64,000 nt of DNA from the NCBI GenBank assembly GCA_942159475.1, contig OW804096.1, forward strand, positions 89,817,784 through 89,881,783. The letters run 5' to 3'. A model generated the notes under the pieces. It saw nothing but the letters and a program-made list of their open reading frames with translations. It ran no database searches and had not been told where the DNA came from. Below are positions 6,339 to 60,193 of the stretch, in pieces (position 1 is the first letter of the stretch; every line of letters begins with the position of its first letter). A program made the translations under genes and the position numbers. The stretch comes from Sthenelais limicola (lineage: Eukaryota > Annelida > Polychaeta > Phyllodocida > Sigalionidae).

Positions 6339-6388
6339 GAAGGATCGAATATCTTTGATATTTTGTGGCTGTGGCCAGTGTGTAATAG

Positions 6389-6914
6389 TGATATGCTTAC
6401 TTGTACGGTGGTAGAGCTAGCGCATATCTATATGCTAATAAGTAATCAATCCAGGAGGCAGAAGTATATTCAAAGAATATCAGAGAACTAACTTTTATTG
6501 TCTACGACATGGGTTATATATCAGCAGGGGTCCAGGTGTGCCTTATGGTTAGCCAGTGACCGTTGGGGTTACATTAGGTCACGTGGTCTGTCGCCAATAG
6601 CAGGTGGTATTACATGTGGTCACGTGGACCAATGGTGGGTGAGGACCGGGCCACCATGTGGCCGGTCTGAGTATTAATTAGTGTATACTGATTACGTAAT
6701 GTGGCACACCTGGACAGGTGTAGAGGTAGCCATGCTTGACTAGACATAGCAAGATGACCTAGATTATAACTGATACATTAATATTCATATTCATGTACTG
6801 AGGTACATATTCATAATCATAATCATGTTAATAAGGTTACACCTTATTATGCAATGTTATACAATATTACGTCATTGAATATTTAGATTAACATGCGGAA
6901 ATATTGGTATGACA
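6389..6914 (-). repeat. Left inverted terminal repeat (LTR-like) of the inner element
   Basis: It is 526 bases, TG...CA bounded. Read on the minus strand (with the genes) it has a TATATA box and then AATAAA near 6,494, so it could act as a 3' LTR and poly(A) site for the internal genes. It contains several CACGTG E-box palindromes and a CCGGCCACATGGTGGCC-type palindrome. It differs from the right arm by a single extra G in a G run. Confidence 0.88.
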
Positions 6915-7712
6915 TAATACCCCGGAGTTAAACAATGTCTCTCCGTAGACATGAAATCTTAAAGCTAGAATTTCTACGTATACCCTAGTGTTTATACCTT
7001 GTAACCTTAATAGAATTCTTCATAATTCATTCGTGCTTTTTAGATGTGAGAAGGACGTGTCGGTGATAGTGTGCATAATATGACTTTCTTTGGGCCGGGC
7101 TTGTCATATTCATTATGTCACTCTATAAGCGTGGATGTACCTTTTCTAGTCCGATCATTGGTTCTTACCATATTATGGTTTCTTTTAACCTTTATACCTT
7201 TTCCTGTACGTGGAAATGAAATAACATATGTGTTTTATCTTAGGTAATCTGATTCTATTTGGATGAAGAATGGGGTGACATATAGCATTCTGGTAATATA
7301 TATACGTATATACTTGTTCACGGTGTTCTCCTTTCACTCTTTGGTTAGCACTTCCTAGGTAGGGTAAACATAAGGTGAAATGATTCTTACATGTTTATAC
7401 ATCACAAAGTAGAACAGTGTAATTTGTAATCTGAAAACAGTTTCACATATATGCAAGGCGTTTGTACATTTTTATACTGTTGTTATGTTGTGAGACAAAA
7501 CCTGTACTGCTGCTAGGCTGATGGTTGTTTCTACCTTGTATATTATGAAATGTTCTAAACCAGATTATGTGACTTATGGTCTCATAGTTTGTTGTTTTTA
7601 GAGTTTGGCAATCTCGAGTTCGTTGGACGGTTGACATGTCAATGAGTGTTGGAACGTGTTGGAAATCATTTTTACGCTGTGGTGCCTTTTTACATTGTTA
7701 TTTTATTTTCCT
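6915..7712. other. Untranslated 3' region of the inner element
   Basis: About 800 bases between the env stop and the left arm, with no convincing ORF. No polypurine tract is visible directly next to the arm (minus strand ...CCGGGGTATTA then TGTCATACC), unlike a normal LTR element. Confidence 0.6.
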
Positions 7713-10451
7713 CTAAGATTCTAATAATACTTTTGCTGGGGGATTTGTTAATGCTCTTGCTATAGCTGTTAGTTTATCTTCTTGGTTTCCTAGCATGGGG
7801 GTCTGAGTTTCTACGTTTTCTGAATCTAATAGGCATTGTATGTCTTGCGGTTTATATTGCTTGAGAGTCATTGGTTTGTAACCCTCATTGTACAGTATTA
7901 TTGCGGTGCTGGTCGTTGTGTCTCCTAGCGCTGGGATGCTTGTGAAGTAGCTTCGGAATGGTAGTTTTACCAATTCTGGTAGGTGGAAGTCGATTACTCC
8001 TGATCTTGTTTTTATTTTCATTGGTCCATTCCATTTGATCCTTAGGGCTGGGTTTGGGCACACTGAGTAGCTTAAGTCCTCGGCTTTTGGGGCGGCTCCT
8101 TCAATGATGTGGTCCCATTCGTGAGGAATGGACAATAGTGGGATAGAATAGTTTTCTGGTCCCAAATATATTTTAAGGCATGCATCAGGGTTGGTTTTCT
8201 TAGCGCTGGATATTTTTCCTATTTTCCTGAGGCAAAATCTCCATAGTACTTTGAAGACTTTTACGGCGATGTAACTTATTATTAATACTATCATGATGAC
8301 CAGAATGTTATGCGTGTCGTGATTCTCTAGGAATTGAAAGATTACTGGTGCTGCCGTCGTTGTCTGCTCTCTAGGTGACAACTTTGTTATGTTTTCTATT
8401 AGGATGGGAGGTCGATTTTCAATATTATGGTGTACCTCATCATACAATTTATATGCACTTGCCGCTCTTGTGAATCCTAAGAATGGACCTGTGCAATGTA
8501 TTTTATATAAGGTAAACAGTGAAATGGTTATCGCACACAAGGATAGTATTGGAGATAGGTAAGACCAAACCGGATTTGACGCGAAGCTTCGTAGGAAGTT
8601 GTTTGTGTCTTGTTTTAATTCTTGTGTTGGTATTTCCAGTAATGAAGCGTTTTCTAATAGCGCCTTTGCAAATGGCAATAAGTCTATCGCTGTATTGGCG
8701 TCTACTGTAGTTTTGTATTGGAATCTTTCCATGAATTTTGATACACTGGGAGATTTGAAGGTGACTGGATTCAAGTGGACCGAACTTGGCATCAGGTGGT
8801 CTAATTTAATGTTTATAGCTGACATGAATAGGAGGTTTGATGTGTGCAGTTCGTAGTGAAATGATGTGGAAGAGTTACATGGGAGTTTTGAATTCGGTAG
8901 TGATAGTGGTCCTATGTTGATGGAGCATAGGCACGGTACTCCCACTATAAATAGCGCCTTTGCTTTGTGTGTGCTTCCTGGTTTTCCATGGCACAATATT
9001 GTGTAACTATCTTCGTTCGTGGCAATCAGATATTCGTCGTGCGATATGGAGATTGCGTGGGTTGTGGGTTTCGCTAGAGGATATATCACAAAATTACAAA
9101 TGTTTCTGAGAATAGTTGTTTTGTTTTGAAATATTGCTATTATGCATGATGGTGAGGTGGCGTGTATTCTAGGAAGCGTGCGGGTGCACACTCTAATGGA
9201 TTCTCCTGTACACGAGTGTAGGTCTCCCTCGCTCACCTCTAGAAACAGAGTTTTATCCCTAGAGACTGCTATAAACTCTACTTTGGTTTTGATGCTTGTG
9301 ATTCCAATTGTTGGAGTTGTTGTCGTGTTGATAGGTATGGGAATTGATATTACTTGGTATAAGTCAAATACTGCAGCTGTGGAAGATATTATCACTCTAG
9401 TGTTTATGTACAGATGGCTTTCTGAATATACGAACATTGAAATTTTTTGGCTGTAGTAATATTCTGTGTTCATTATCGCTACTTGCGCTCCTGGGGATGT
9501 GATTTTTAGTTTAATATCTATCTGTGTAAGATAATGCGCAAAGTCTGTAGGTGTTATGATTTCAGGTGATAGTATGCCTGTAGCTAGTAATCGTAGAGAG
9601 TCAATCATGATGTTGAGAGATTGGAGAAATTGTAACTTATGTGATACGATAGTCAATGCTTCCAGAACTAGGGTCGTTTGCGCCCTTTCGTTCTCTTCGT
9701 TTGCTCTCACGTTATCTAGTTTTACTGTAAGATTATTGGTCCATTTATCTATACCTCTCGCCATCGTTCTCATCATAGTTTCTGAATATGTTCTATCTTT
9801 TAGGTACATATTGTAAAATTTATCTTGTTTGGCTGTTACTTTCGTTAATAGTTCTGCGGTATCTTTATCTTGTTGTGCGAACGACTGGAGGACTGTATCT
9901 ATGTTTGAAACTGTACCTACTAGGTTTGCGATATCCTGAGTTGTGGCTAATCCGAACAGTCCCTTAAATGCTTCTCCTAGGAATCCCAAAATTGCTGATC
10001 TTTTACTGCGTTCCTGATGCTTGTTAATTGGGTCCGATAGGAATAGTACTAGGGTTGCTACGGATGCGTTTATCTGATGTTCAGTGTTATTTATAAGGGC
10101 ATCCAAGGCTTGTGCCTCCTGAATTAGTACGTCACTTATGTCCTCCGTGTTTTCCATATCCAATCTACTGGAGAATCTCCTGATCTCCTGGGTATAATTT
10201 ATAGCTGTAGGGGGAATTTGTGGGATATTGTAGGGGACTGCGAATATTATTTCCGAGTAGTCGTGGCCGTTTACCAGTGGGGCTGGTAGGGGTTCGAATA
10301 GAATGCCCACATTCTGTCGAAGTATAGGGTTTCCTGCGCCTACTAACGTGTAGATGGCTAAGAAGACTGTTACGAATAACATCTGTAATAAAGATAATAT
10401 ACCCATGCCTAAGTAATTGTAGCGTTTGTGGCTGCCTATCTGGCAGAACAT
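7713..10451 (-). CDS. Envelope-like class I fusion glycoprotein of the inner element
   Basis: An intact 912-codon ORF at the env position. Residues about 17-40 form a hydrophobic signal or anchor segment. A furin-type site RSKR ends at residue 151 and is followed at once by a Gly/Phe/Ala-rich fusion-peptide-like stretch (GFLGEAFKGLFG). A helical heptad region comes next. This layout matches the baculovirus F / errantivirus Env family. N-glycosylation sequons are frequent. There are two hydrophobic segments near the C-terminus (about 625-655 and 707-735), then an unusually long tail of about 175 residues. By family knowledge it would sit in membranes and mediate fusion; whether it does here is unknown. 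Expression probably needs a spliced message. Confidence 0.82.
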   Translation of the reverse strand: MFCQIGSHKRYNYLGMGILSLLQMLFVTVFLAIYTLVGAGNPILRQNVGILFEPLPAPLVNGHDYSEIIFAVPYNIPQIPPTAINYTQEIRRFSSRLDMENTEDISDVLIQEAQALDALINNTEHQINASVATLVLFLSDPINKHQERSKRSAILGFLGEAFKGLFGLATTQDIANLVGTVSNIDTVLQSFAQQDKDTAELLTKVTAKQDKFYNMYLKDRTYSETMMRTMARGIDKWTNNLTVKLDNVRANEENERAQTTLVLEALTIVSHKLQFLQSLNIMIDSLRLLATGILSPEIITPTDFAHYLTQIDIKLKITSPGAQVAIMNTEYYYSQKISMFVYSESHLYINTRVIISSTAAVFDLYQVISIPIPINTTTTPTIGITSIKTKVEFIAVSRDKTLFLEVSEGDLHSCTGESIRVCTRTLPRIHATSPSCIIAIFQNKTTILRNICNFVIYPLAKPTTHAISISHDEYLIATNEDSYTILCHGKPGSTHKAKALFIVGVPCLCSINIGPLSLPNSKLPCNSSTSFHYELHTSNLLFMSAINIKLDHLMPSSVHLNPVTFKSPSVSKFMERFQYKTTVDANTAIDLLPFAKALLENASLLEIPTQELKQDTNNFLRSFASNPVWSYLSPILSLCAITISLFTLYKIHCTGPFLGFTRAASAYKLYDEVHHNIENRPPILIENITKLSPREQTTTAAPVIFQFLENHDTHNILVIMIVLIISYIAVKVFKVLWRFCLRKIGKISSAKKTNPDACLKIYLGPENYSIPLLSIPHEWDHIIEGAAPKAEDLSYSVCPNPALRIKWNGPMKIKTRSGVIDFHLPELVKLPFRSYFTSIPALGDTTTSTAIILYNEGYKPMTLKQYKPQDIQCLLDSENVETQTPMLGNQEDKLTAIARALTNPPAKVLLES

Positions 10452-11134
10452 AATTTCATGATTTGTATAGTTGCTCTTACGCTAATTAGCGGTTATGTCG
10501 CTTTCTATCTTCACAATATAGGCACAATTTCAAGATGTATTAATCTGTAAACGGGTAAGAATGGTAGAAGTAAGTAAATGATGCATATACCTTGTCAATC
10601 GTATCTATGGCCGGTAATAGACCGTAATTTGGCGAATTGCTCTGTGTCACTGTCCTGTGCTCCTTGAGGTAATATTTTCGAATGATGGGTGGTGTGGGTT
10701 TTTAAGCTTGCTTAAATGTTTGCCCCTAACGACGGGACCGTAGGTTGGCTATGTCTACGTGTCTATGACAGTTGCAAGCAAGCAAGCTTTCTTGTGATAA
10801 GCTTCAGGTCTATGGGGGTGGGTTCTGCTTTGAGGTGTTGACGCCTCGCCAGCGAGTGTGTCTCCTCCTGACGCTTATCGCGATTAGTGTCAGTAGCTTC
10901 TCTCACCCTTTATTGTTTGTGGGTTGGCCTGTCTGGTGACAGCTTGGGTTCTTAGGATTATGACAATGGGAATTGAGCTTTACTTCGGATAATGACCCTT
11001 ATTGGCAATTGCGTGTCTATACCGGTTAGATTGATGTCAGTCTGCATTAAAATGAACGATAATTGTTAATTGGAATGTTTATCTGGGGCTTGGCCGTTTG
11101 GATTCGCAGTCCTTTGTTGAATGTACCATATGTT
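10452..11134. other. Spacer between integrase and env of the inner element
   Basis: About 680 bases with no supported ORF. It holds a short inverted repeat around AAGCTTGCTT (10,705) and CAAGCAAGCTTT (10,770). An env splice acceptor would be expected here, but none can be assigned with confidence. Confidence 0.4.
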
Positions 11135-11464
11135 TCATGCGCTAGGCTTAAGCTTAGAGTGGCTTTGTTTAGGGATTATATGTGGTACTGGGGAAATGAT
11201 CTTTTGTTTTGGCGTAATTGTACCTGCTTTGATGTTCCAATCTTTCCTTAGTTTGTCTGGGGTGTGTTGTAGTAGTCTGTAAGCGAATTGATTGTTTTTC
11301 AAGTTTTGCACCTTTTTCAGGCGGTCAACATGTATTGATTTAGTTAGGATTTTCCCAGATTTAATGTCCCTGAGAATGACACTAAAGTTTGATTTGTATT
11401 TACATACTAAATATGGTCCCATAAAAACTTGTTGGAGTTTCTTAGATGTATGCTTCTGTAGCAA
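11135..11464 (-). CDS. Integrase C-terminal segment, inner element
   Basis: In the same frame as the integrase core upstream and separated from it by one in-frame TAA near 11,480. It contains the GPY/F-type module (FMGPYLVCKY ... HVDRLKKVQ). The C-terminal tail is basic. If the TAA is real, the integrase of this copy ends before this module. Confidence 0.8.
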   Translation of the reverse strand: MLQKHTSKKLQQVFMGPYLVCKYKSNFSVILRDIKSGKILTKSIHVDRLKKVQNLKNNQFAYRLLQHTPDKLRKDWNIKAGTITPKQKIISPVPHIIPKQSHSKLKPSA

Positions 11465-11479
11465 GTTTGGTACGTGTAT

Positions 11480-12364
11480 TTACACTATGTCTGAGACGCA
11501 TATTTGTGAGTATGTTGCGTTCGCATCGTGTCTAGCTTTGGTCTTAATTTGCGTGGTTTTGGTCCTTTTGGCTGCCTGATCAAAGGAATGATCTTGAGCC
11601 GTGACCATGTCTATGACTGATTTTATAAGAGTTGTCGGCTCTGTATTTGCGCTTAATGTTGCGTCCATTAAGTTCCTGGGTTGTCTTCCGTGTAAGAGAA
11701 AGTACGGGCTGTACCCAGTGGTTTGATTTTGCGTTGTGTTTAGGGCGAATGTTATTTGTGGAAGATATAGGTCCCATGATTCCTGCTTTTTCATTGCGAA
11801 TGCCCGGAGGGCAGTATTTAGGGATGAATTATATCTTTCCACCTGGCCATTGGATTTGGGTCTCCAGGGAGAGGAGAATATCTGCTTCATGTTGAGCTTT
11901 TTGCATATGTTTCCAAAATTTTTCCCTGAGTAGCTAGTGCCGTTGTCCGACTGGATACTAGTTGGCACGCCATGTTTACATATTAGGTGTTCTATGACAC
12001 CGTCTATTGCACTAGCTGCGTCAATTGATTCAGTTGGGAAGGTAATGCAGAACTTGCTATGGAAATCTAAAATAACATGGATGTATTTGTATCCCTTCTT
12101 TGTTGTGGGGAGTGGTCCTATAGCATCTATGCATACCCTCTCGAATGGTTTTGTGGTGGGCTCCCTGATAGTCATTGGTGATTTCTGTGTCCTGCGTAGC
12201 TTTTTAGCCTTCAAGCATAGGTCGCATGTAGACACATATCTTTTAACATCTCTGTTCATGTATCGCCAGTGTACTTTGGGCAACATGGCGGCTAACATTT
12301 TTATTTCACCTACGTGTGCTGATATTGGACTATCATGAAATAGTTCCAGTGTGTTTTCAATCAT
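11480..12364 (-). CDS. Integrase zinc domain and DDE catalytic core, inner element
   Basis: Zinc-binding H10, H17, C47, C50 and catalytic D80, D140, E176 are all present (ERVCIDAIGP, IQSDNGTSYSG, GQVERYNS). The open frame extends upstream of the first ATG to about 12,390, where it overlaps the end of the RT ORF in the -1 frame. The ATG at 12,364 is thus probably not the true start. It should be part of a pol polyprotein reached by frameshift, unless the frame change is a mutation. Confidence 0.88.
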   Translation of the reverse strand: MIENTLELFHDSPISAHVGEIKMLAAMLPKVHWRYMNRDVKRYVSTCDLCLKAKKLRRTQKSPMTIREPTTKPFERVCIDAIGPLPTTKKGYKYIHVILDFHSKFCITFPTESIDAASAIDGVIEHLICKHGVPTSIQSDNGTSYSGKNFGNICKKLNMKQIFSSPWRPKSNGQVERYNSSLNTALRAFAMKKQESWDLYLPQITFALNTTQNQTTGYSPYFLLHGRQPRNLMDATLSANTEPTTLIKSVIDMVTAQDHSFDQAAKRTKTTQIKTKARHDANATYSQICVSDIV

Positions 12365-12378
12365 ATCATCTGGGATAA

Positions 12379-15246
12379 CTATTTGTAGTAATCGATGAGG
12401 CCTTTGATATATGGAGTTGACCTCTGAGATCTCTTCAAATTGCTTAGAGAGAAATGGAAGTCTGGTATATGTTTTAAGGTATCTGCAATTGACTCGAATT
12501 GGGAGTGGGCTTGATCAAATAAGCCTTTCTCCTCGGGGGAGGTTTGTCTTGACGATCTAGTTGTCATCTGGGAGACTTCCTCGGTACTCTCTTCAGTACT
12601 CATTGATAGGGAACTTATCTTTTCTCCTATTTTTGAGTCTGAGATGGGATTAAAGTCGTTGTTGGGGAATTGTTGACAGAAATCTACCTCACAGTTACAA
12701 TAAAAGTGATGTGTAGACTCCTGTTTCAAGATACCTTTCTTTAGACTTTTATGTTTCATAATTGAGTTTGGGGGCTCTGATAGAGTGAAATGAGCCTGAT
12801 TAGTTTCTGATTCGAATGCGACTCTTGTCGCGACCCTTATCCTCTTAGGTGGGGGTGGGGGGTCAGTCATGGGTGGTTCTATCTTATATTCTCTTCGAGA
12901 AAGAACATCAGCTACTGTGTTTTCTTTCCCCTTGACGTGTTGAATTGTAAACGAATATTGCTGGATTTCTAGGGCCCACCTAGCCATTCTATTTGTATTT
13001 TGCTTGTTCGTCAAGAGTGGGATGAGGGCTGCATGGTCAGTGTATAGCTGGAAGTGTCTGTTCTCCAAATAGTGCCTGAAATGTTGCACGGAGTACACAA
13101 TCGCTAGTAGTTCCCTTTCCGTTGTATTATAGTTGACCTCGTGTTTACGAAGGCACCGACCTGCAAAGGCTACTGGTCTCAGCACACCCTCATTATCTAG
13201 CTGAGATAGGACAGAACCGACAGATGTGGAACTTGCATCTGTACTTAAAATGAATTCTTTGTTGAAGTTGGGGAAGTGTAGGAGGGCGTCTTGGCATATC
13301 GAATTTTTCATGGAATTAAATGAATTCTCACAATGTTTATCCCATTTGAATTTGTTACCAGCTTTTGTTAATTCATACAGTGGTTTGATAATCTGGCTGA
13401 AATCTTTTATGAACCTCTTGAAGAACTGGCATAACCCATTAAACGACCTGACCTGAGTTACAGTTTTGGGTCTGGGGAAAGATTTTAATGCCTCGATCTT
13501 GCTGGGGCATGGTTGGACTCCTTTAGGAGTTATCACCATCCCAAGGAAATTGATGCGGTCGAGAAAGTACTCGCATTTAGATTTCTTCAGTTTTAGATCA
13601 CCCTCTCTCAGCGCCTGAAACACGTTTCTGAGGTCTCTGAAATGATCTTCCTCACTGCGGGACAAAATTAGGAGGTCGTCCAGATATGGGATCGCACATT
13701 TATACCTAAGTTTCTTAAGAATCATGGTCACTAGAGCACAGAAAGCTTGTGGGGATGTTTTAAGTCCCAATGGTAGTACCTTATACCTGTATTTCTTGCT
13801 GTAGGAGCAAAAACTAGTTTTATCTCTGTCCTCTTCCCTGAGTGGAATTTGAAAAAACCCTTGTTGACAGTCTAGTTTTAAAAATATGGTTGGTTGTAAG
13901 TCGCCAACGTACTCTATGGACTCATCTGCTCTAGGTGATATTAGTGCTTGATTTATTAGGTGGGCGTTAAGATATCTGAAATCTGTGACGACTCCCATGC
14001 CTCCTCCTGACTTTTGAACCATGAAGGACCTGCTTGACCATGGTCCTGTATTTGTTTCTTCGATTATTCCCTGACTTTCCATCTGCTCACACACTTTGTC
14101 AAACTTTTTTGCTTTATCTAATGTGGTGCGGAAAGGAAGCATGTGGCAAGGGACTGTGCCCTCTTTTAAGTGCAGGGAATGCTCGTATAATTTAGATAGA
14201 CCCAATTTGTTATCTTGGCCAACAAAAACGTCGTTGTATTCTGTTAGTAATGCCTTCAGTTTACCTTTCCCTACTTCACTCAATATCTGGTTAGGTTTAA
14301 CATTTTCCTCTGAATAAATGTGAACTTCATTGTAATTGCTAATGTACCTTTCCTCCTCGGATGAGGTATCGCTGCAAGAAAAATCACTGTTAGTATCGAA
14401 GGATGTGTCCATGTGGGACAGTTCTGTTATTCTACCTGTAACCTGAGTATCTGTTTTATCGGGTAAAGGAACAAAATCTGTTGGGTCTGATCTAGAAAAT
14501 ACTGCTACAATTTGACCTTTGTCGATTTTGTATGGGGATGCCCCTGTATTTAATAGTACTACTGGATGTCTATTGCGCCCATTCGGTATTACCACGCTTC
14601 TTTGTACTAAGAAGGGGACATCCACGCGTCTTGCCATATTATCTACTATTCCCTCATGATCGATATCATTTAAAGTTGTTATTTCACCTGTTAACGCAAA
14701 TTCACAGTGTGGGGGAATAGTTATTGACCTTGTGGCCCTAACTGGTTTGTACATTTCGGAAGGATCTTCCTCAAAGATGATGTGGGCTTTATGTTTTCGG
14801 AAGAAATCTACACCTAATATCATGGGACGGTTTAAGGTTGGCATAACTGCAAAATTATGGCTAAATGTTTGACCTTGTAGCATGAAGGTTATTTTTGCGA
14901 CCTTTTTAACATGTACCACGGCACTGTCTGCCATATATATTTTCCAACGAACCTTTGTAATGTCAACCTGTCCTCGCTCTTTGAACTTTTCTAGTAATTT
15001 ACCTCTAATGGCGGAGATTGATGCGCCAGTGTCAATAAGAGCTTGGATACCATAATTGTAAGCGAATACTTCTAAACAACCATTTTTTATAGCAGCAGTA
15101 ATAGGAATTGTCTCACCTAATTCAGATTTTGGTTGTAGAACGATCCGAGCTTCCTCATCTATGGTTTTCCCAGTGTTGGTAGTAAATATGTGTTCGTGTA
15201 GATGTGATTCTTCCGCATTCACATCGAATAACAGTTTCTTTCTCAA
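12379..15246 (-). CDS. Protease, reverse transcriptase and RNase H, inner element
   Basis: The 955-codon ORF holds a retropepsin with DTG at residues 72-74 (ALIDTGASISA). RT spans about 345-570 with the first aspartate in KLDCQQG (459) and YLDD at 521-524. RNase H follows with D670, E711 and D737. The tail (about 770-955) is Ser/Glu-rich and unlike known domains. The frame opens upstream to the gag stop at 15,333-15,335 and is -1 relative to gag, so a -1 frameshift or readthrough is needed; the ATG at 15,246 is probably not used. Protein sequence places it in Ty3/gypsy. Confidence 0.92.
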   Translation of the reverse strand: MRKKLLFDVNAEESHLHEHIFTTNTGKTIDEEARIVLQPKSELGETIPITAAIKNGCLEVFAYNYGIQALIDTGASISAIRGKLLEKFKERGQVDITKVRWKIYMADSAVVHVKKVAKITFMLQGQTFSHNFAVMPTLNRPMILGVDFFRKHKAHIIFEEDPSEMYKPVRATRSITIPPHCEFALTGEITTLNDIDHEGIVDNMARRVDVPFLVQRSVVIPNGRNRHPVVLLNTGASPYKIDKGQIVAVFSRSDPTDFVPLPDKTDTQVTGRITELSHMDTSFDTNSDFSCSDTSSEEERYISNYNEVHIYSEENVKPNQILSEVGKGKLKALLTEYNDVFVGQDNKLGLSKLYEHSLHLKEGTVPCHMLPFRTTLDKAKKFDKVCEQMESQGIIEETNTGPWSSRSFMVQKSGGGMGVVTDFRYLNAHLINQALISPRADESIEYVGDLQPTIFLKLDCQQGFFQIPLREEDRDKTSFCSYSKKYRYKVLPLGLKTSPQAFCALVTMILKKLRYKCAIPYLDDLLILSRSEEDHFRDLRNVFQALREGDLKLKKSKCEYFLDRINFLGMVITPKGVQPCPSKIEALKSFPRPKTVTQVRSFNGLCQFFKRFIKDFSQIIKPLYELTKAGNKFKWDKHCENSFNSMKNSICQDALLHFPNFNKEFILSTDASSTSVGSVLSQLDNEGVLRPVAFAGRCLRKHEVNYNTTERELLAIVYSVQHFRHYLENRHFQLYTDHAALIPLLTNKQNTNRMARWALEIQQYSFTIQHVKGKENTVADVLSRREYKIEPPMTDPPPPPKRIRVATRVAFESETNQAHFTLSEPPNSIMKHKSLKKGILKQESTHHFYCNCEVDFCQQFPNNDFNPISDSKIGEKISSLSMSTEESTEEVSQMTTRSSRQTSPEEKGLFDQAHSQFESIADTLKHIPDFHFSLSNLKRSQRSTPYIKGLIDYYK

Positions 15247-15332
15247 TATCGTTGGACTTTCCAGGTTGTCGTTGAAATGTTCATTTATGGTTTGTCCCTG
15301 CCCGAGGGGACCTTGGACACGCCGAATTGGCC

Positions 15333-16535
15333 CTAGTGCGACGTGTGGTTGCCGTTTCCCTGCCTCCTGCTATTCTGGAAGGCTTGGAAAGCTTGGAAAT
15401 CTGCCATCATTTGATGGTCAAACTGTGGAGCTTGGTAGTATTGCTGGGGGAATTGGTTATATCCTGAGTTTTGTTGCCAATTTCCTTGGTTCTGGTTGTA
15501 CTGACCATTACCGTTATTCCACCCATTGTTGTCCCAGTTGTTATTGTTGCCGTTTCCTTTGTTCTTCCAGCCGCCGCGTCCTCTGCCGTTGCCGTTCCAT
15601 TTTCCTCGGCCCCGGCCGCGACCGCGTCCTCTGCCGCGTCCACCTCCTCGGTGGCCGCCGATCTCTTGGACTGTCTCTGTGGCTTCTGGCTTTGGTTTTT
15701 CCTCCTGTGCGGTCCTTACCGCTTTAATTTGTTCGCTTAATACTTTAAATTGCTCGTCTGCTAGTTTTGTTAACGCACTGCATGAGCTTGCTACTATGCT
15801 TGAAATATCTGCTGAGTCTATTAAGGCAGGTTTCTGTATGCTGGCCTCGGCTGTCTTTGCCATTATTACTGCTGCGTCGAAGGTAATTGGGGTTTGGGCT
15901 AACACTACTTTCCCGATCTCGCCCCTTAGTCCTTCTACTAATTTTTCAATGGAGGATTCCTCGTTTAATCCTCTGGCGTGGACGATATCTCTTAGTTCTG
16001 CTGAGTATGACTCCACAGATTCATCCTTTCTCTGTTTTCTCACGCCAGTTATCCTTAGTTTACGTTCATCCGCGGCAAAATGTGCAATCATGGCTCTACA
16101 TGTAGCCAGGTAATCGTTTCTGTTCACATGTGCCGTTCTCACATATCTATCTAGCCATTGCTTTGCTCTCCCGTCCACGTATGTCGACAAATATCTGGGT
16201 AGCATGGCGGGATTGTTATCATATGCGAGGTTAATATAGTGTTCATACGCATCAAGAAAAGATCTGGTCGTCACTGTACATGTTGGATGTCTAAATACCT
16301 CTGGTTTTCTCAGGTTCGGGTCCTGAGCTCTGAGTGCCACAAGTGCTTCGGCGAAATGTTCATGTCTTTGAGCCTCTGCTTGTTGTGCCTCTTCATTAGC
16401 TGGAGGCATGACGACTTGGATCCTGTGGTTCTGCGGGGGTTGAGGTGCGCCTCCATCGCCACCTTGTCCCGCTCGTGCAGCGTCTACTGCGGCTTGGACT
16501 CGTACTCCTAAGATGTCATACCAATATTTCCGCAT
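15333..16535 (-). CDS. Gag of the inner element, with Gly/Arg-rich tail
   Basis: 400 codons. The middle (about 110-260) resembles a retrotransposon capsid region (FLDAYEHYINLAYDN, then DESVESYSAELRDIV). The C-terminus has no CCHC zinc knuckle; instead it has Arg-Gly repeats (about 293-325), then Asn/Gly/Gln-rich sequence, reminiscent of spumavirus-type GR boxes. The first ATG (16,535) lies inside the right terminal repeat, 21 bases from its inner edge, so the repeat supplies the first codons. Confidence 0.82.
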   Translation of the reverse strand: MRKYWYDILGVRVQAAVDAARAGQGGDGGAPQPPQNHRIQVVMPPANEEAQQAEAQRHEHFAEALVALRAQDPNLRKPEVFRHPTCTVTTRSFLDAYEHYINLAYDNNPAMLPRYLSTYVDGRAKQWLDRYVRTAHVNRNDYLATCRAMIAHFAADERKLRITGVRKQRKDESVESYSAELRDIVHARGLNEESSIEKLVEGLRGEIGKVVLAQTPITFDAAVIMAKTAEASIQKPALIDSADISSIVASSCSALTKLADEQFKVLSEQIKAVRTAQEEKPKPEATETVQEIGGHRGGGRGRGRGRGRGRGKWNGNGRGRGGWKNKGNGNNNNWDNNGWNNGNGQYNQNQGNWQQNSGYNQFPQQYYQAPQFDHQMMADFQAFQAFQNSRRQGNGNHTSH

Positions 16536-17038
16536 GTTAATCTAAATATTCAATGACGTAATATTGTATAACATTGCATAATAAGGTGTAACCTTATTAA
16601 CATGATTATGATTATGAATATGTACCTCAGTACATGAATATGAATATTAATGTATCAGTTATAATCTAGGTCATCTTGCTATGTCTAGTCAAGCATGGCT
16701 ACCTCTACACCTGTCCAGGTGTGCCACATTACGTAATCAGTATACACTAATTAATACTCAGACCGGCCACATGGTGGCCGGTCCTCACCCACCATTGGTC
16801 CACGTGACCACATGTAATACCACCTGCTATTGGCGACAGACCACGTGACCTAATGTAACCCCAACGGTCACTGGCTAACCATAAGGCACACCTGGACCCC
16901 TGCTGATATATAACCCATGTCGTAGACAATAAAAGTTAGTTCTCTGATATTCTTTGAATATACTTCTGCCTCCTGGATTGATTACTTATTAGCATATAGA
17001 TATGCGCTAGCTCTACCACCGTACAAGTAAGCATATCA
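16514..17038 (+). repeat. Right inverted terminal repeat (LTR-like) of the inner element
   Basis: 525 bases, the reverse complement of 6,389-6,914. Its TATATAA box and AATAAA (about 16,928) point in the plus direction, that is outward and against the internal genes. On the minus strand it also has TATATA and could still drive gag. There is no TGG-type primer binding site just inside its inner edge. Confidence 0.88.
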
Positions 17039-18833
17039 ATAGCCTCAATCTTCTCCGGATCTGGTCTGCTCCCTTCGCTGTTAACTATTCTGCCTAGAAA
17101 TCTAACAGAGCGCTTGAAAAGTACACATTTCTTTGGTTTCAAAATCAAACCAAATTTCTGTATCCTCTCAAAGACACATTTCAGATTTTTCCTGGCTTCT
17201 TCCAATGATTTTCCGTAGGAAATTATATCATCTAAGTAAACCATACATTTTGTCCAGCGCAATCCTTGTAACATACTCTCTACCATGCGTTCAAATGTGG
17301 CTGGGGCATTGCATAGCCCAAATGCCATCACATTGAAACGAAACAAGCCTATATGGGTGACGAATGCAGATTTTTCCTTCGATTCTTCATCCAATTCCAC
17401 TTGCCAATAGCCTGATTCGAGATCCAGGGTAGAATAATACATGTTTTTCCCAAGAGCATCTAGACTTTCATCGATTCTAGGTAGGGGGAACGCATCTTTC
17501 TTTGTGATGTCATTTACTTTGCGATAATCCACACAGAAACGAATGGAATTATCCTTCTTTTTGACCAGAACAATCGGTGATGACCATGGCGAATCACTAG
17601 GCGAAATAACTCCTTTATTTAACATCTTTACTAGCTCTTCTTCCACTGTTTTTCTCCTGCCTATGGGTAAGCGGCGATAGCTCTGCTTGATAGGTTCCGA
17701 ATCTCCAGTGTTTATGTGATGTTTCACGTTATCCGTTCTACCTAGGTCTCCTCCAGGTTTTTGGAATATATTGAAAAATTCCAATAGGTCAGATCTAACC
17801 AAATCTTTCTCCTTCTCAGTGGTTATATCACTCTGAGAAACCAGTTGTTCCAGGTATTGAGGCAAATTATATTCAGTCATTGCCGGATCATGAGCAATTG
17901 TTTCCAATAATACAGCAATTCGCTCATCCTCCAAGGTAGAATTTTCAGGTTCAGCGATGTCTATCGACTCATCATTCCCAGTGTTCTCTATTTGAGAAAC
18001 CACTTCAGCAACGCCTAATATCTCACCCTCTTCAATGAATTGTGCCTGGTTGGTGATATTCATCACAGGCAACCCATACAACTCCTCCTCTTCTCTGTAT
18101 CCTATCATGGTAGGAAAATTTACTAATCCTCTGTCATCGTCTATGTACATAGGAGGCTCCACAAGGAAATCACCTTTGCTCATGCCATTCCTAGGGCCAG
18201 TCCAGATTGCTTCTACCATCGTCACTGAATTCTTCTTAATTTTAGTTCTTTCCTTAACTCTCAGGGCTCCATTATTCGATACAAATTCACAAAAAGTTTT
18301 CCTTCCATTTATATCAATCTCCCCAGTTTTGCTTCTAAACGCCATGTCCACTGCCATCTGGAAATCTAAGCCTAATATTCCGGATTCTCTATGGATACGT
18401 CCAACGAAAAATCTCCAGACATGCAACTTTCCTCCAAGATCAAAGTGGAAATTAGCAACACCTAACAAGGTTATATCACTGCCATTAGCAGCAATGACCT
18501 TATCCGAAGTGGGTAACAATGAAGGTGGGTTGATCATAGAGGAATATATACCCTCATCGATCAAGCTGATGGAGGCTCCAGTGTCCACTAATAGGTGATA
18601 CAAATCTCTTCCAAAAGTAGCAGGTACATACCATCTTGCTCCTTTTAAGTTAGGCAGACAATAAATATTTTCCTCAGGCCTGGTCACCAGTAATAAATCA
18701 GGAGCTTCAGGGGCCGTACCCTCCCCTAAGAAAGAAGGTCCTGAAGAATTATTCATTGCTGTAATTGTCTGGTCGGAAAAGCCACTTTGAGATAGGGTGG
18801 TTGAGTTGATGGCCTTGTCCAACACAACCACTA
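17039..18833 (-). pseudogene. Protease and reverse transcriptase of the outer gypsy element, cut by the inner element
   Basis: Protease has DTG about 83 codons in (HLLVDTGASISL). RT follows with VDYRKVND, STLDLESGYWQ, AFGLCNAPATF and YLDDII. The RT connection is interrupted after ...PDPEKIEAI at the ATAG duplication and resumes at 6,388. The frame begins in a 1-base overlap with the gag stop and is -1 relative to gag. The open frame runs on to 16,936 only because it enters the repeat of the inner element. Confidence 0.9.
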
Positions 18834-20773: not shown

Positions 20774-21464
20774 TGTTGCGATTCTTGCCTATGTTCTTTC
20801 CTATGTCTTTGTGGCCATCGTTGTACATCTGTGTTTCAGCTCCGGCTTAATATTAATCGATATTAAATAATGATATTTCGTGATCGTATAGGTTTACTTC
20901 TGCGAGAATACATATATTATGAATATCGATAGCAGGAGATAGGGGGAAAAGGAACTATAGTGGCCGGATTATATTAAAGTTCCAAAGGACCAAGGGTTGA
21001 AATATTCTATGTTCCAAGCGCGGATCCAAGATAAAACATCAAGAGTGAAATACTTCTTTCATATGTTCCCTTTATTCCTCCTTGTGTGTTGGGTTGAAGA
21101 CCTTGCTCCTCAACCCGATAAATGAACAGGTACATCGAGATATGAATAATTTTCAAACCAAGGAAGCATTATGTTTGCAACATAATTCAGGAATAATGGA
21201 ATAAATATAATAATCACATAAATGCAAAGTTGAACATAAATATAGAAATATGTAATGAACATCATGGTCAAAGTCCGGATGAAATCAAATGAATAATTAA
21301 TTAATGATAAATTAAACAAATAATATAAACTGCAAATATCATCAATGGTTGCAATGAATATCCTAGTGGGATCCGGAGGAACTACCCGGAGGCGGAGGTC
21401 CGGGTCCGGGTCAAACCGGAGCTATACGGAGCTCAATGGAAATCTTCATAATGGAGTCGTTACA
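20774..21464 (-). repeat. 5' LTR of the outer gypsy element
   Basis: 691 bases, TGTTGCG...GTTACA, matching the copy at 873-1,575. A GGAGGTCCGGGTCCGGGTC segment lies near the U3 end in element orientation. Confidence 0.9.
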
Positions 21465-34651: not shown

Positions 34652-34739
34652 GTATTGTGTCTATTATTTTCATGCACATATCGTGTAGGCCTACATACTG
34701 CATCGACCCTTTACTTGCAAGTTGTGTGGAATGCAAGCA

Positions 34740-35044
34740 GCGGAACCTTACTATTTAGCGCCGGCGACTGAATGTGGCTTCAGTGACGTGATTGGCTGTT
34801 GTAACTAGAGCCGGCTTGACTAAGTGCTGTCAAATGTTATTTAACAGAAATCAATACTAAAACTAACCCTAAACCTAACCTTAAATTGGTGGTCCTAAGT
34901 CAGTAAAGCGGGTAGTGGACTGTCCAGAGTAAAATAGACTAATAAAACTAATTACATGACTAGTAAAGACAAGTAAGCCCCGCCCACCGGATCTACCAAG
35001 CCCCGCCCACTTTGGCTAGCCGGCGCTAAATTGTAAGGTTCCGC
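34740..35044. mobile_element. 305-bp MITE, copy A
   Basis: It begins GCGGAACCTTACTATTTAGC and ends with the inverted counterpart GCTAAATTGTAAGGTTCCGC, giving terminal inverted repeats of about 26 bases. The interior has no ORF. It is followed after 19 bases by an identical copy. Confidence 0.85.
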
Positions 35045-35063
35045 CTAAAGCGTGTGGCAAGCA

Positions 35064-35368
35064 GCGGAACCTTACTATTTAGCGCCGGCGACTGAATGTG
35101 GCTTCAGTGACGTGATTGGCTGTTGTAACTAGAGCCGGCTTGACTAAGTGCTGTCAAATGTTATTTAACAGAAATCAATACTAAAACTAACCCTAAACCT
35201 AACCTTAAATTGGTGGTCCTAAGTCAGTAAAGCGGGTAGTGGACTGTCCAGAGTAAAATAGACTAATAAAACTAATTACATGACTAGTAAAGACAAGTAA
35301 GCCCCGCCCACCGGATCTACCAAGCCCCGCCCACTTTGGCTAGCCGGCGCTAAATTGTAAGGTTCCGC
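35064..35368. mobile_element. 305-bp MITE, copy B, in tandem with copy A
   Basis: Essentially identical to copy A, at an offset of 324 bases. GTGTGG occurs left of A, between A and B, and right of B. Confidence 0.85.
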
Positions 35369-36510
35369 CTAAAGCGTGTGGCCATACCTTATGAGACTTG
35401 TCTTGAACCTTAGCGTAAGCTTGGGCTAAAAAAGGATTACAAAAAATATTCATAAGCCCATTTTTATGGAATGATAGGAAAGTTATCTGGTTGGGGTTGG
35501 GATGGGGTCTCATTGTTAAAAAAGTGCACCTTCACTGGCTTTAGTTCATTTGTTTTCCAATGGGGTCTAACAAACCGTATTCTATTGTATCACTAACGCA
35601 ATATCCCTTGGGTTCAATTCGTATTAAATTCGATTACGAATTGTATTGTTCACATAGGAATCAGGGACACGCATAACGGAAGTTAGGAGATTTCCTCTCA
35701 AGGTAAGCTTCAATTGTCGAATTCTTAGATCACCTACGTAGCGAGGGCTACACGCGATCTAGGTTGAGTTGTGACGCAATGATATCAATGCCATCAAACA
35801 CTATTGAACCATTATATAAATATAGAGAATGGTATGGTACTGCGGAATTTCTCTACTTGAATTTCCAATAACAGGCACCAAGTACCATATAATTATGTAT
35901 TATATGAATATATGCCCTTCATTTCAATGACATTTTAGCTAAATGGGCCGAAAATATCGCTGATAATTGCATGCACTTCACTAACGGCCGGTACGCCTCA
36001 GATGGGCTACACGGTAGAAAGATGTTGATAGAGTGAACAAGAAAGTTGAAATTCCATAATTTATAGCGTATCAGAAATGTCACAAATGTATAAGAATAAT
36101 TCAATATTAATTAATCTATTGACATTCTCATACTATAAATTCAGCAGCCTATAAAAGCCGTGTCAATTATCTCCTTTTCCACACCAAGTCGTAAGTACAT
36201 GTAAATCAGAACCTTTTTTTTGCATGAATATCATTCTGGCATATATAGTTAATCTATATCGCTTATCCTTGATAATCTGAGTTTCATTACACGATTTCAT
36301 GCAGAATTTCGATATTTTATTTTCTTTGGAACCATATAATTATCATATATACATGTACCTAATTTGCCGTTCCATCAATGCCCCTTTACATCCCCGCATC
36401 CACCCAATAATTCCCGTGAACAAACACTTTGTGTTTAAGTACGTTTGCAATTTTTGTTAATGCTTTGTAAGTGTCTGTAAGCTGGGACATGTTATGAATT
36501 GTAATATGGC

Positions 36511-36567: not shown

Positions 36568-37176
36568 AGGGAAAGGTGCTTTGCTTTTGGTTTTTGGCTC
36601 TTAGCCCCTGCATGGCCCTTTAATTGTCTCTTGGACCGATTTTAGTATTGTATATGCTATAGGAGATTTTATATTATATAGATACCATATTAACCCGGGC
36701 TATAGGCCTATCTTGGATTAATTCATGTGTTTCTCTCCGGATTTACTGTGAAAAGGATAAATATTATTAATTGGTAGGCTACTTATATTGGGACATAGAA
36801 ATGATAAATGTGCATGTGTATATTATTGGAAATTACTATGGGATGTGGAGCATTTTTTTGCAAATTCCTTTAGGTTGTGCCAAATATTTATCACAGATTG
36901 CCTGGACTATCTTCCATTATTCCCACCATCATCATTATAATTAAAGTATTAAATTTGTTGGTGCACGTGCTAAGCTTAGATGGGAATTTCTCTCATATCA
37001 AACCATTTTCCTACCAAGTCCAAAGTACTTAGATACCGGTACTAATCAACAACACGTTCATAGTTTTTGAATACTAGAAACGTCCTCGTGCTTCCTCTCT
37101 GAATTGACAATCCAAAATATACAAGATATACAAATTGTAGGCTAAAATGCTTCGAGAACGCTCCTGAAGGCAAGGA

Positions 37177-37482
37177 GCGGAACCTTACAATTTAGCGCCG
37201 GCTGACAGAATGTGGCTTCAGTGACGTGATTGGCTGTTGTAACTAGAGCCGGCAGGGATATGTGCTGTCAAATGTTACTTAATAGATATAGATACTAAAA
37301 CTAACCCTAAACCTAACCTTAAATTGGTGGTCCTAAGTCAGTAAAGCGGGTAGTGGACTGTCCGGAGTAAAATAGACTAATTAAACTAATTACATGACTA
37401 GTAAAGACAAGTAAGCCCCGCCCACCGGATCTGCCAAGCCCCGCCCACTTCGGCTAGCCGGCGCTAAATTGTAAGGTTCCGC
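37177..37482. mobile_element. 305-bp MITE, copy C
   Basis: Same family as A and B with scattered substitutions. CTCCTGAAG flanks it on both sides, a target duplication of about 8-9 bases, which would suit a hAT-like transposase. Confidence 0.82.
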
Positions 37483-38648
37483 CTAAAGCCTCCTGAAGCA
37501 GACGACAATCTCAGCTTAGAGATTTCAAGCCTCTTTTACGGGAGAGTTCTTTGTTTTGGTCTGGTCTCGTGCAGCCGCTGCATGCTGCAGGAGTGGAACA
37601 ATTATGGCGTCCAGCGAGGTCAACACAAGTGTGGACTTGTTTCCAATTCTTGCTCGGGGTGGCAGAGGATACTGTGTTATAACCCTCGAATATACAGCTT
37701 AGTGTTTACCGCGACTTATCAGGAACTATTTATGGGATTGGGAACACATTCCTGAGTGTCGGGCGCAGGCATACCACAGTTTAGTTTAATGTCACTACCA
37801 GTTCCACCCTGCGAAATTTGGAGCCCTGCCTCCCCATCCCTCCGCAGGACAGCACAGGTGAGTGAGCAATCGATATGAGTCTTCGCTTGGGTTGGCCCTG
37901 CTATCTCTATATGTCATTATGCTGGTTGATGATTATTCTGTTTTGAACCATCAGGCAAATGTCAGGATCTGTTTATTTGTCTTGAGTGTTGGTACTAGGT
38001 CGCTTCTGTTGGGGGAGAGATAGGCACTGATGGATGTGTAGTAACACTAGTACTGTCTATCACAGTGTTACACCTTATCTCCACAACTAGCCATTCAGTG
38101 AGAAGTACAACAGATATTCGTTTGAAAACCGTATCAATTTGTTGACACTTAACCGGCACTCTACACATTTTGCTAGCTGAGGCCCCTGACTATAGGCCTA
38201 CTAGTTCAGGACCCCCACATATATAAAGCCTAGTAAAGCTGTATTCCGTATGTCCTAGCCCTGAGTTAGTGAGTATAGTTTGACATATTTAATTAGAGAC
38301 TAATTACACGCGTTGAGTGTTTCCACATGCATGGTTATTTATCAATTTCCTCTGAATCAATGGGGTAGTGAGCGACATAATGTTAAGCTTTTTGTTTTAT
38401 CTGGTATCCTAGGCTAAGCTAATCCTCACATTGGTCACATACCTTTGTTCCTATGGATTAGCTATCATAATACATTGATATAATTCCTGAAGTTAATTGT
38501 GATTCATGTGGCTCATGTTATATCATATATATCGCTTGTTGTCAGCCAGCATATTGCCCCGTAAAATTTTCAATTTGTAATTAAACCAACACCTAGGTAT
38601 AAAGTAAGTCTACCTAAATGTCAAAATGAAAATGTATTTCTCTTAATA

Positions 38649-56421: not shown

Positions 56422-56786
56422 GTATGTCCAGATTTTTTTTAGCTGATTGCCCTCTACATAAGATTCAAAACAATAGGATTGCCAGCTTTTGAAGTTTATT
56501 TATGTCTCGTCCTATCACGTTAGTGGTACGAGACTCCATGAGATCACGCATGCGCAGCATCACGTCAGTCTACGCGCGCTCCAAAGTCGCTGCAAGTCAC
56601 GTAGTTCACAGGTTGTGTAAGTATTATTTACTTTTATTCAATTTGAGAGCTTTTTGGCTCTCTAGTTATGTTGAGGAGTTGGTCTGGATCGTTGATCGCC
56701 ATTTCTCCTCTTTTCCTATTTCAAACAGCCACCTTCGGGTCGAGATATGACTGTTTATGTTCTTTCGATATATTTTTCAGAACTCG

Positions 56787-58310
56787 ATGCCAGCCAGGCG
56801 AGCGAGAAAGTCAAAAAGTTCGAGTTTTAACTCGCAAGAGAAATTATATCGAAATATACTCGCTACTAGGGTTCAACCCCCTCGTGGAGCTATAGGGAAA
56901 GTGGTTTCTTCGGTTATGGGAGATAAACCAGAAACGAACGGCAAAGCAGCCGACAAAAATGGCCCGAAAGTTGACGTCGTTGAAAACGGGCAAGGTGGCG
57001 TTCCCGCCAAAGACGTACCACGTGACCTCACGTCTGCCGCAGCAAGTGCGGGCTCTCGCATGGATACTTCGGACTTGATTCAGACTATTAACAATCTTAG
57101 AGACGAAGTGGGCCACATTAGGAGCCAACAACAGAATTGGGATATGTATGGGCCTCCGCCCTGTCTTTCAGCAGCTTCTGGGCCCAGTTCGAGCCTTGGT
57201 TACGGTCCTAGTTACTATCAACAAACGGCGCCATCTTGGGGTTGGCAGCCTCGGGGCCAGCAGGAGCGGTACGAACAGTGGGATGAAGAGGAGTATTGGG
57301 AAGAAGAAGAAGCCCCTCCGATAAAAAGAAGGAATATTCATGACCTTTCTGAGAATTCAGATGATGAGGAGTTCTCTGCGAGAGTTAACAAGGAAACTTA
57401 GTTGAAATTAGGAGCGGAGCTCGGAGGTGAAAAGTCCGTCTCCAAGTCTGCGGAGCCGATGTCGGCGCTAGAGAAGGAATCTCTCAAGTTGCTGGAACAA
57501 AAGGAAGGGGAAAAGGTGGGTCCTCCGCTGAAGGAGACTGTTGTTAAAGTGATTGAAACCTATCTCCCCTCTCCTTGTCGTTCAATGGTTCAGGAAGTGT
57601 TAGCGGAATATCCCAGACCGGAAAACGCAGATATGTTGAAAGTACCCAAGATCGATGACGCAGTTTATGGCATCACTTCGCTCGCCACTAAGGAGAGAGA
57701 TAAGTCGTTTAAATATATGCAGAAGGCCTTGCATTCTCTGATAGCTTTGTCAGCGAACATTTACGATAACTTGTGTAAAAATGATGCTTTGATGGCGGTA
57801 GGGTTGGAAGCCCACAAGGCTATTAGGGTGCTATGTTTCCTCTCTCAGGAAGTGAATTCTAGAAGGAAAGAGGCTCTGAAGTCAGCAGTAGACCTGAAGT
57901 ATGCGCCTATTTTCTCGCATAAGACCTCTACGACCCCGGAATGGTTGCTCGGTGGGAATTTGAAGGATAAGCTGGATGACAGCGATGTGGCATACAAGGT
58001 AAAGAAAAGGCTTGAGAGAGGCCAGACGAAAAGTCGTTTCCCCAGGGGAAGAGGTGGCTACTAGGGTAATGCACCTAGGGGCCAGAACCCCAGATTTCAT
58101 CAACAACAGCAACAACAAGGGTTTGCTCCGCAGTATCAACAGAACTTTGCTTCGAACCAACAGTGGCAAACTCCTGTAATGCCATTTCAGTACCAACAGA
58201 ATCAACAGCCTGCCTTTAAGCCTCGAGCTCAGAATACCCAAGGTTACCAACCCCGCAACCAGAATTTTCAGCGGGGGGGGGGGGGGGGGGGGGGGGCTGC
58301 CAAGAAGTAG
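56787..58310 (+). pseudogene. Gag-like ORF of the DIRS element, with two in-frame TAG codons
   Basis: One frame runs from ATG 56,787 to TAG 58,308-58,310, broken by TAG at 57,399-57,401 and at 58,062-58,064. The N-terminus is basic and Ser-rich (MPARRARKSKSSS). A helical part lies around 57,440-57,960. The C-terminus is Gln/Asn/Pro-rich and then a run of about 24 G codes poly-Gly. Both stops sit where CAG would fit the local composition. Confidence 0.72.
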
Positions 58311-58384
58311 AACTGGTAAGTCCCCCTGATTTCTGCTTTTATCAATTTAGAGCAGGGAATATTGCTTGTCATTTTAGTGAGTGG

Positions 58385-60193
58385 TTGAACATTACTTCAG
58401 ACCCGTGGGTGCTAGACTTAGTACAGGGAGCTTCTATCCCTTTTGATTGGATCCCGTGGCAATTGTCCCCCCCTCCCCCCTTCAATGCGTCGGGGAAAAA
58501 TATTCAGATATTAGGTGAGGAAGTAGCTAAGCTATGGAACAAGGGAGTAGTAGAATTAACTAGTGAGTCTCCGGATCAGTTTCTCTCGAATATTTTTCTG
58601 AGGCCCAAGCCCAATGGGAAATTTAGAATGATTTTAGATTTGTCAGTTCTGAACAAGGCGGTTCATTATGAACACTTCAAGATGTTTAGTTTACAAGCAG
58701 CAATTGATCTTATGACCCCGGGGGCTTTCCTAGCCAGTATTGACCTTAGTGATGCGTACTTTACAGTAGCAGTGAGACAGGAGTTTAGGAAGTTTCTGAG
58801 GTTCAAGTGGGGTAATAATACTTATCAATTCACATGTTTACCAATGGGTTTAGCTTGCGCCCCTTTGTTTTTCACAAAGTTGTTATATCCAGTGTTTGCG
58901 ACACTCAGACAGAATGGGGCCAACTGTTTCCCTTATATCGACGATTCCATCACGATTGAACTCTCGTATGAGAAATGTAAGAGTAGTACGCTAAGGTTAG
59001 CAGAACTATTAGCCAGATTGGGTTTCTTTATACAGCCGGAGAAATCGGTGTTCACCCCTTCAACGAAGCTAGTTTTTCTAGGATTTTTACTTGACACTGA
59101 GTCAATGACAGTCTCCCTTACGGAGGGGAAAAGAGAAAAGATGTTACGAGCCTGTGAGGACATTCTAGTAAAGAAAGTGGTTTCGATCAAGGAGATCGCA
59201 GGGGCAATAGGCCTGATGATAGCTTTCTCGGTGGCGGCAGACTACGGTGGGAATCACGTAAAAGAGTTGGAATGTGATAAGATAGATGCTTTGAGAGTAG
59301 GAAATTTTGCAGCGTTCATGTCCCCTTCTCAAGATGGCTGGGATAACATTAGGTGGTGGAAAGAGAACATCGGTTCGACGTTTAGGATAGTGCGAGATAT
59401 CATTCCTGAGCTAACTATGTATTGTGACGCGTCCAACCTGGGTTGGGGAGCTGTGCTCGATGGCCAAGGGGCAAATGGCAGATGGAAGGAAGTGGAGTTA
59501 GAATGGCACATTAATGTAAAAGAACTAGCAGCTGTTTTACTAGGGCTTCTCAGCCTTTGCAAGGTGTCAGACACCTGTATCAAAGTTATGTCCGACAACA
59601 CAGTCACGGTTTCTTACATCAACAAGATGGGAGGAGTAAAATCTAGAGAGTGTCAAACTATTGCCAGAAGGATCTGGGACTGGGCTGAACTGCACAGAAA
59701 TTGGCTAGTGGCTGCTCATGTCCCGGGAAGATTGAATGACCAAGCGGATTTTGAGTCAAGGAACTTTTCCGATAACGTAGAGTGGGAATTAAATCAAGAA
59801 GTGTTTGAAGAAATCACAGCTAAATTAGGGGTCCCTTCATTTGACCTGTTTGCTTCCAGAGTGAACAATAAATGTGACCGTTATTGTAGTTGGCGTCCGG
59901 ACCCCGGGGCGGAATGGATAGACGCTTTTACTTTTCATTGGTGTAATGAATTCTTTTATATTTTTCCTCCTTTTAGTCTGGTAGCAAGGACCTGGCAAAA
60001 GGTTATGAGGGAAAGCACACACGCAATCATTGTAGCTCCCGATTGGCCAGGTCAGAGCTGGTTCGCTCTACTAACATCCTCTGCGAAAAGAGTACTACGG
60101 TTAAAGAAAAAGAAAGGGAATCTCCATCACAGGGAGGAGGAAAAGAACCGAGACCAAATCACCAACATATCCCTCATTGCTTGCCTCTTCTGA
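58385..60193 (+). CDS. Reverse transcriptase and RNase H of the DIRS element
   Basis: 602 codons, intact. RT motifs: LSVLNKAVHYEHFKM, ASIDLSDAYFTV, LPMGLACAP and the active site YIDD (about residue 185). RNase H follows with MYCDASNLGWG, VMSDNTVTV and the AHVPGRLNDQAD motif. The DIRS-specific extension VPSFDLFASRVNNK ... CSWRPDPGAEWIDAF comes next. The first ATG is taken as the start because the frame is short upstream. Confidence 0.92.
   Translation: MNITSDPWVLDLVQGASIPFDWIPWQLSPPPPFNASGKNIQILGEEVAKLWNKGVVELTSESPDQFLSNIFLRPKPNGKFRMILDLSVLNKAVHYEHFKMFSLQAAIDLMTPGAFLASIDLSDAYFTVAVRQEFRKFLRFKWGNNTYQFTCLPMGLACAPLFFTKLLYPVFATLRQNGANCFPYIDDSITIELSYEKCKSSTLRLAELLARLGFFIQPEKSVFTPSTKLVFLGFLLDTESMTVSLTEGKREKMLRACEDILVKKVVSIKEIAGAIGLMIAFSVAADYGGNHVKELECDKIDALRVGNFAAFMSPSQDGWDNIRWWKENIGSTFRIVRDIIPELTMYCDASNLGWGAVLDGQGANGRWKEVELEWHINVKELAAVLLGLLSLCKVSDTCIKVMSDNTVTVSYINKMGGVKSRECQTIARRIWDWAELHRNWLVAAHVPGRLNDQADFESRNFSDNVEWELNQEVFEEITAKLGVPSFDLFASRVNNKCDRYCSWRPDPGAEWIDAFTFHWCNEFFYIFPPFSLVARTWQKVMRESTHAIIVAPDWPGQSWFALLTSSAKRVLRLKKKKGNLHHREEEKNRDQITNISLIACLF

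Follow-up and report, generated by a model that had tools for sequence, protein, structure and literature searches.

The stretch of DNA analysed here (the window) is 64,000 nt from Sthenelais limicola. Positions 6389–17038 of the window represent an env-bearing Ty3/gypsy element with one full LTR at each end, in opposite orientations (526 and 525 bp). Comparison with other copies in the genome makes it very probable that this insert is one aberrant reverse transcript, produced by an env-bearing Ty3/gypsy element of the ordinary kind with direct LTRs. The basis for this reading is the presence of two U5 tips, an exact 4-bp duplication, a unique junction and the loss of the PBS, leader and gag start. 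The minus strand is the sense strand of the insert, and the features are as follows.

873–21464, minus strand: interrupted host element, an older gypsy with direct LTRs at 873–1575 and 20774–21464 (96.9%)
6385–6388, plus strand: target site duplication, left copy, ATAG (flank comparison)
6389–6914, minus strand: 3' LTR, oriented as is normal for the family (TGTCATACC...GCATATCA on minus), with the U5 tip at 6389
7713–10451, minus strand: env, an ORF of 912 aa resembling baculovirus F proteins (Baculo_F match in Pfam with E 5.5e-8, above the cut-off)
11135–12364, minus strand: integrase part of pol (H2C2 and rve core), in a different frame from RT-RNase H (Pfam)
12379–15246, minus strand: RT-RNase H part of pol, which includes a protease-like stretch (Pfam; protease match below the cut-off)
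15333–16512, minus strand: gag, truncated at 16512 (Pfam and comparison with ordinary copies)
16513–17038, plus strand: inverted full LTR (525 bp) plus one extra base (an A before TG), with the U5 tip at 17038
17039–17042, plus strand: target site duplication, right copy, ATAG (flank comparison)

Structure of the insert and its target site

The inverted arms are at positions 6389–6915 (plus) and 17038–16513 (minus), with lengths of 527 and 526 bases. They align over 530 bases with 99.6% identity, which is far beyond chance. The sole difference between them is a 1-base gap, caused by an additional G within a run of Gs near position 6648. The initial annotation had described inverted repeats of 525 bp at 6389–17038 that differ by one base in a G run. 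The repeats, the coordinates and the single difference are as described there; the arm length is refined to a full LTR (526 or 525 bp) plus one inner base. The tips of the insert are TGATATGC and GCATATCA. When the 3' LTR is read on the minus strand, it displays TATATAA, followed by AATAAA.

The insert lies inside the RT of the older gypsy element, between exact copies of ATAG. When the empty site is rebuilt from 45 host bases on each side and one ATAG, a single open frame runs through the interrupted RT. Four of five aligned relatives reach the identical residue from either side of the insert; in the fifth, the two aligned stretches overlap by a few residues at this point. The exact duplication and the reading of the host RT across it, both proposed initially, are thus upheld.

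The matching duplication and the uninterrupted host RT imply a single insertion. This argues against a later rearrangement, or a composite of two oppositely oriented elements, as the source of the inverted arms. Rearranged and chimaeric copies do occur in this genome, but for the 5' LTR to be flipped where it stood, both of its ends would have to be cut and about 196 nt lost on one side, and we consider an origin of this type highly improbable. An assembly or read artefact is also very unlikely. The locus was read from the genome assembly sequence, and palindromic chimaeric reads exist, which would favor an artefact. However, the insert meets the host at two exact joints marked by the 4-bp duplication, across which the host RT has an open frame. 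The contig is 150 Mb, and the 1-nt difference in the inverted arm, a deletion, is absent in all 38 of the other readable LTRs (L038 is not readable). This deletion may stem from an error in copying or from a mutation after insertion.

Genes of the insert

Pfam matches for gag, RT-RNase H, rve and Baculo_F bear out the gag-pol-env content that was first annotated. The order within pol is RT, RNase H and a DDE (rve) integrase, as in Ty3/gypsy elements, and among solved structures Ty3 is the top match for both RT and IN. Protein searches yielded four relatives for env (34–35%), two for gag, one of them marginal, and 43 for pol. One gag relative, P0006, is extended at the N-terminus. Of the pol relatives, the closest seven (P0008–P0014) are single proteins of 1,291–1,499 aa. 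Scans of viral contigs and genome contigs found no DNA relatives.

The pol of the insert is disrupted. Its integrase part contains an in-frame stop at 11480–11482. In addition, about 136 nt are absent at 12387–12389 relative to the direct copies, with a 3 nt microhomology at the gap. The missing stretch is present in six of the eight direct copies tested, and the other two do not align across the place. L065 likewise has extra bases here. As judged against these copies, the gap may be private to the window copy.

The missing 5' end and the junction with gag

In an ordinary copy, the LTR (TGTCATACC...GCATATCA) is followed by a PBS-like stretch, AATGGTCGAGAACCC or AATGGTGGAGAACCC, and then by the leader. 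A TGG is situated 2 nt past the LTR and represents a putative PBS. U5 followed by the PBS-like AATGGT[C/G]GAGAACC is found in 20 of the 40 loci (19 and L031). The PBS zone of L031, L032, L035 and L039 is AATGGTGGAGAACCC and not AATGGTCGAGAACCC, which indicates two PBS variants in the family.

The window copy differs in that the place of the 5' LTR, PBS and leader is taken by the inverted LTR at 16513–17038, which abuts gag directly. The PBS, leader and gag start are absent, a loss of about 196 bases. This number comes from the ordinary copies: the gag edge is at a constant distance inside the LTR in 14 of 14 ordinary 5' loci among L001–L030 (by BLAST), and the distance is 196 nt in the five loci measured by exact word. 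Translation of one ordinary copy shows an open gag frame whose nearest upstream ATG is about 27 codons before the junction point. With the inverted LTR against gag and the PBS, leader and gag start gone, both tips of the insert are U5 tips. Comparison with the layout of ordinary copies also shows which arm has been turned: the 3' arm is in the normal orientation and the 5' arm is the flipped one.

The extra base before the TG of the inverted arm is an A. An A precedes the TG at all 14 of the 3' LTR edges examined, including that of the window copy itself (GGGTATTA followed by TG). The gag of the one ordinary copy that was compared has a T at the position of the extra A. The A could also be an untemplated base (a chance of 1 in 4).

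The inverted arm has its inner edge no more than one base from the precise end of U3. This suggests a variant of the aberrant-transcript reading, in which integrase would have strand-transferred a cDNA or an LTR fragment into gag by its U3 end, similar to autointegration, and the two U5 tips of the product would then have served for its integration. We regard this route as unlikely. A processed end should set TG directly on gag, but there is one extra A, the same base that precedes TG at the 3' LTR edges. If a complete 5' LTR had been attached by this route, an inverted PBS and leader would also lie outside it, and neither is present. The extra A thus makes it less likely that a processed U3 end was strand-transferred directly, although the base may be there by chance.

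The lack of a purine tract at the inner edge of the arm could suggest that the LTR extends beyond the arm. Sister copies share the non-purine GGGTATTA before the 3' LTR, so a purine-tract test at the arm edge is uninformative, and the idea of a longer LTR was dropped.

Copies of the family in the genome

The genome (1.13 Gb) was searched with one arm. This gave 121 candidates, of which 40 were scored, with 42 matches at 40 LTR places; all orientation counts given here cover these 40 of 121, two of which are the inverted pair of the window. Twenty-two of the scored LTRs form 11 pairs, and every pair is direct. Eight pairs are 9.6–11 kb apart and three are wider (16–28 kb). Exact 4-bp duplications flank nine of the 11 pairs, the exceptions being L018/L019 and L027/L011. 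The 16 remaining scored LTRs consist of seven 5' and two 3' LTRs without a found partner, four solo LTRs that carry duplications, the tiny insert L032, and L001 and L040, which are unclassified. Relative to the adjoining element sequence, 32 of the 38 LTRs other than this pair have the normal orientation. The remaining six (four solo, two unclassified) have no element sequence alongside and cannot be judged.

No second pair of LTRs in opposite orientation within 30 kb is present among the 40 scored of 121 candidates. The inverted gag junction was searched for as a pattern of 27 bases with up to 3 mismatches, and the single match in 1.13 Gb is the window locus; an inverted copy broken at another point would be missed by this pattern. 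As 40 of 121 candidate LTRs were scored, further copies may exist, including inverted ones. To find partners of LTRs that lack one, nine stretches at the distance typical of the family (seven for 3' ends and two for 5' ends) and two stretches about 10 kb to either side of L001 were examined; none of the 11 has an LTR, env-edge, gag-edge or integrase match. Several of the copies concerned are truncated or chimaeric, and the far ends of L005, L009, L014, L029, L036 and L039 were not found.

L001 (C7:88100797) is an LTR identical to the 3' LTR of the window copy. It is not adjoined by any element interior or by a matching duplication.

These counts bear on the proposal in the initial annotation that the insert belongs to an undescribed TIR-type retroelement family, i.e., one that normally has inverted terminal repeats together with a DDE integrase. 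Several features of the window copy are compatible with such a family: the duplication is intact, the arms are nearly identical and the gag frame continues into the arm. There is also a published parallel. An excerpt of a locust study states that the Gypsy-25 subfamily classically harbours an inverted LTR pair (PMC8786324). The wording of that excerpt may be loose, and if it is literal, inverted LTRs would be a family trait elsewhere (PMC8786324). The likeness is that of a gypsy element with inverted LTRs in print; the difference, by the description in this excerpt alone, is that the LTRs of the window family are direct and one copy is inverted (PMC8786324).

The copy count that was proposed as a check, inverted against direct, goes against the TIR-type proposal: all of the 11 other pairs are direct, 32 of the 38 other LTRs are in the normal orientation and the inverted junction is matched once in 1.13 Gb. 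Ordinary copies have the PBS zone, leader and gag start that the window copy lacks. Given that its sister copies are normal, the window insert does not represent a new family, and a TIR-type family is refuted for the LTRs scored; as a general explanation we give it almost no weight.

Sister copies with faulty ends

Other members of the family display joints that depart from the ordinary layout. L013 (C7:78599831) together with L063 consists of a 5' LTR, gag and a truncated pol that is joined to 21 nt of a U5 tip, and is flanked by a CTAG duplication. In L016 (C9:32856194; positions 33–2026 of the locus), the first 74 nt of U3 are joined directly to env. This copy has a further inner deletion and is flanked by a CAAC duplication. 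The tiny insert L032 (positions 1002–1611 of the locus) has an LTR, a 15-nt PBS zone and the last 70 nt of U5, with a TCTA duplication. As these three are flanked by target site duplications and have faulty ends, such products do integrate in this genome. All three have exact duplications, and each pairs a U3 tip with a U5 tip. Two U5 tips are in this comparison found only in the window copy.

L031 is a rearranged copy, in which pol is joined to a U5 tip and PBS zone, followed by the 3' LTR. In L014 and L064, pol switches at the point corresponding to window position 14543 into the apparent RT of another gypsy element, as judged by eye; a chimaeric transcript is possible. The faulty joints of the sister copies may have arisen by template switching.

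In L009 and L062, a stretch of gag (window about 16411–15768) and the sequence that follows it are present twice, in direct order.

Proposed origin of the inverted LTR

In its second reading, the initial annotation offered a reverse transcript whose two tips are the same LTR end and which integrase nevertheless accepted. The two U5 tips and the usual 4-bp duplication fit this reading, and so does the absence of the PBS, leader and gag start. The sequence of events may be reconstructed as follows. Minus-strand synthesis would have ended inside gag. The end of this unfinished cDNA would then have been extended by, or joined to, a copy of the LTR, either by a template switch or by end joining. 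The added copy would begin one base before the TG of U3, which is about where plus-strand synthesis should begin, and would end at U5. Integrase would then have processed the two U5 tips and inserted the product in the usual concerted way.

A broader proposal is that in this family the U5 tip is sufficient by itself as an integration signal, and that unfinished cDNAs are repeatedly rescued by an LTR tip acquired in the course of reverse transcription. This is put forward tentatively, as it is more doubtful than not. If true, the inverted-LTR copy would be an extreme case of something regular, namely the integration of a panhandle-type cDNA that has a U5 tip at each end.

The insert, flanked by its target site duplication, seems to record the concerted integration of a cDNA with like U5 tips at both ends. 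Together with the other faulty-ended inserts, it preserves accidents of reverse transcription in genomic form. A clean duplication around inverted LTRs is insufficient by itself to define a new class of element, and where LTRs are annotated as inverted, sister copies should be examined first.

Comparison with known systems

Experimental retroviral DNAs with two U5 ends, from work on RSV and ASV, show that integrase can use molecules with a like LTR end at both tips. Inverted LTRs are also known from defective retroviral DNAs in these systems. These examples are laboratory viruses or unintegrated molecules, whereas the window case is a gypsy insertion in a genome assembly. In searches of the open-licence literature we found no inverted-LTR insertion with a DDE integrase that was explained as an aberrant transcript.

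The insert resembles env-bearing, errantivirus-like Ty3/gypsy elements in its gag, the order RT, RNase H and integrase, the Baculo_F env and the 4-bp duplication (ATAG), and the rest of its family has the direct LTRs typical of such elements. The window copy is unlike them in its inverted LTRs, and no PBS follows a 5' LTR and no leader or gag start is present. The errantivirus likeness refers to an Env related to baculovirus F proteins.

Inverted terminal repeats are the rule in DIRS retrotransposons, which use a tyrosine recombinase, according to excerpts of two sources (PMC3783388, PMC5633606). The window copy, alone in its family, is similar in having inverted terminal repeats around a retroelement. 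DIRS elements differ in that they have no DDE integrase and possess an internal complementary region. The insert has an rve domain and no such region: the longest match between arm and interior is 11 nt on either strand, and the median of 100 shuffles is also 11 (sense arm). Ten further ORFs of the 28 listed (one of the ten a repeat) gave no Pfam match, to a tyrosine recombinase or otherwise. Membership of the insert in DIRS is rejected, based on the presence of rve and the lack of an internal complementary region.

Other features of the window

The interrupted host element has a TGG PBS at position 20772, the purine tract TTGGGGAGGAG and its own duplication, AATA. In a comparison with 22 tRNA 3' ends, its PBS gave a match (His-like); the same list gave no match in the insert at 6389–17038.

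A DIRS-like element is found at window positions 56500–62474. It has inverted ends at 56500–56568 and 62360–62474 and an internal complementary stretch at about 62054–62183. The RT, together with a weak match to a Dam-type methyltransferase below the Pfam cut-off, is at 58385–60193, and pieces of a tyrosine recombinase are at 60043–60495 and 61123–61824.

A unit of about 324 bp is present as two identical tandem copies at window positions 34733–35382. A third copy, with 94% identity, is at 37166–37489, about 1.8 kb away.
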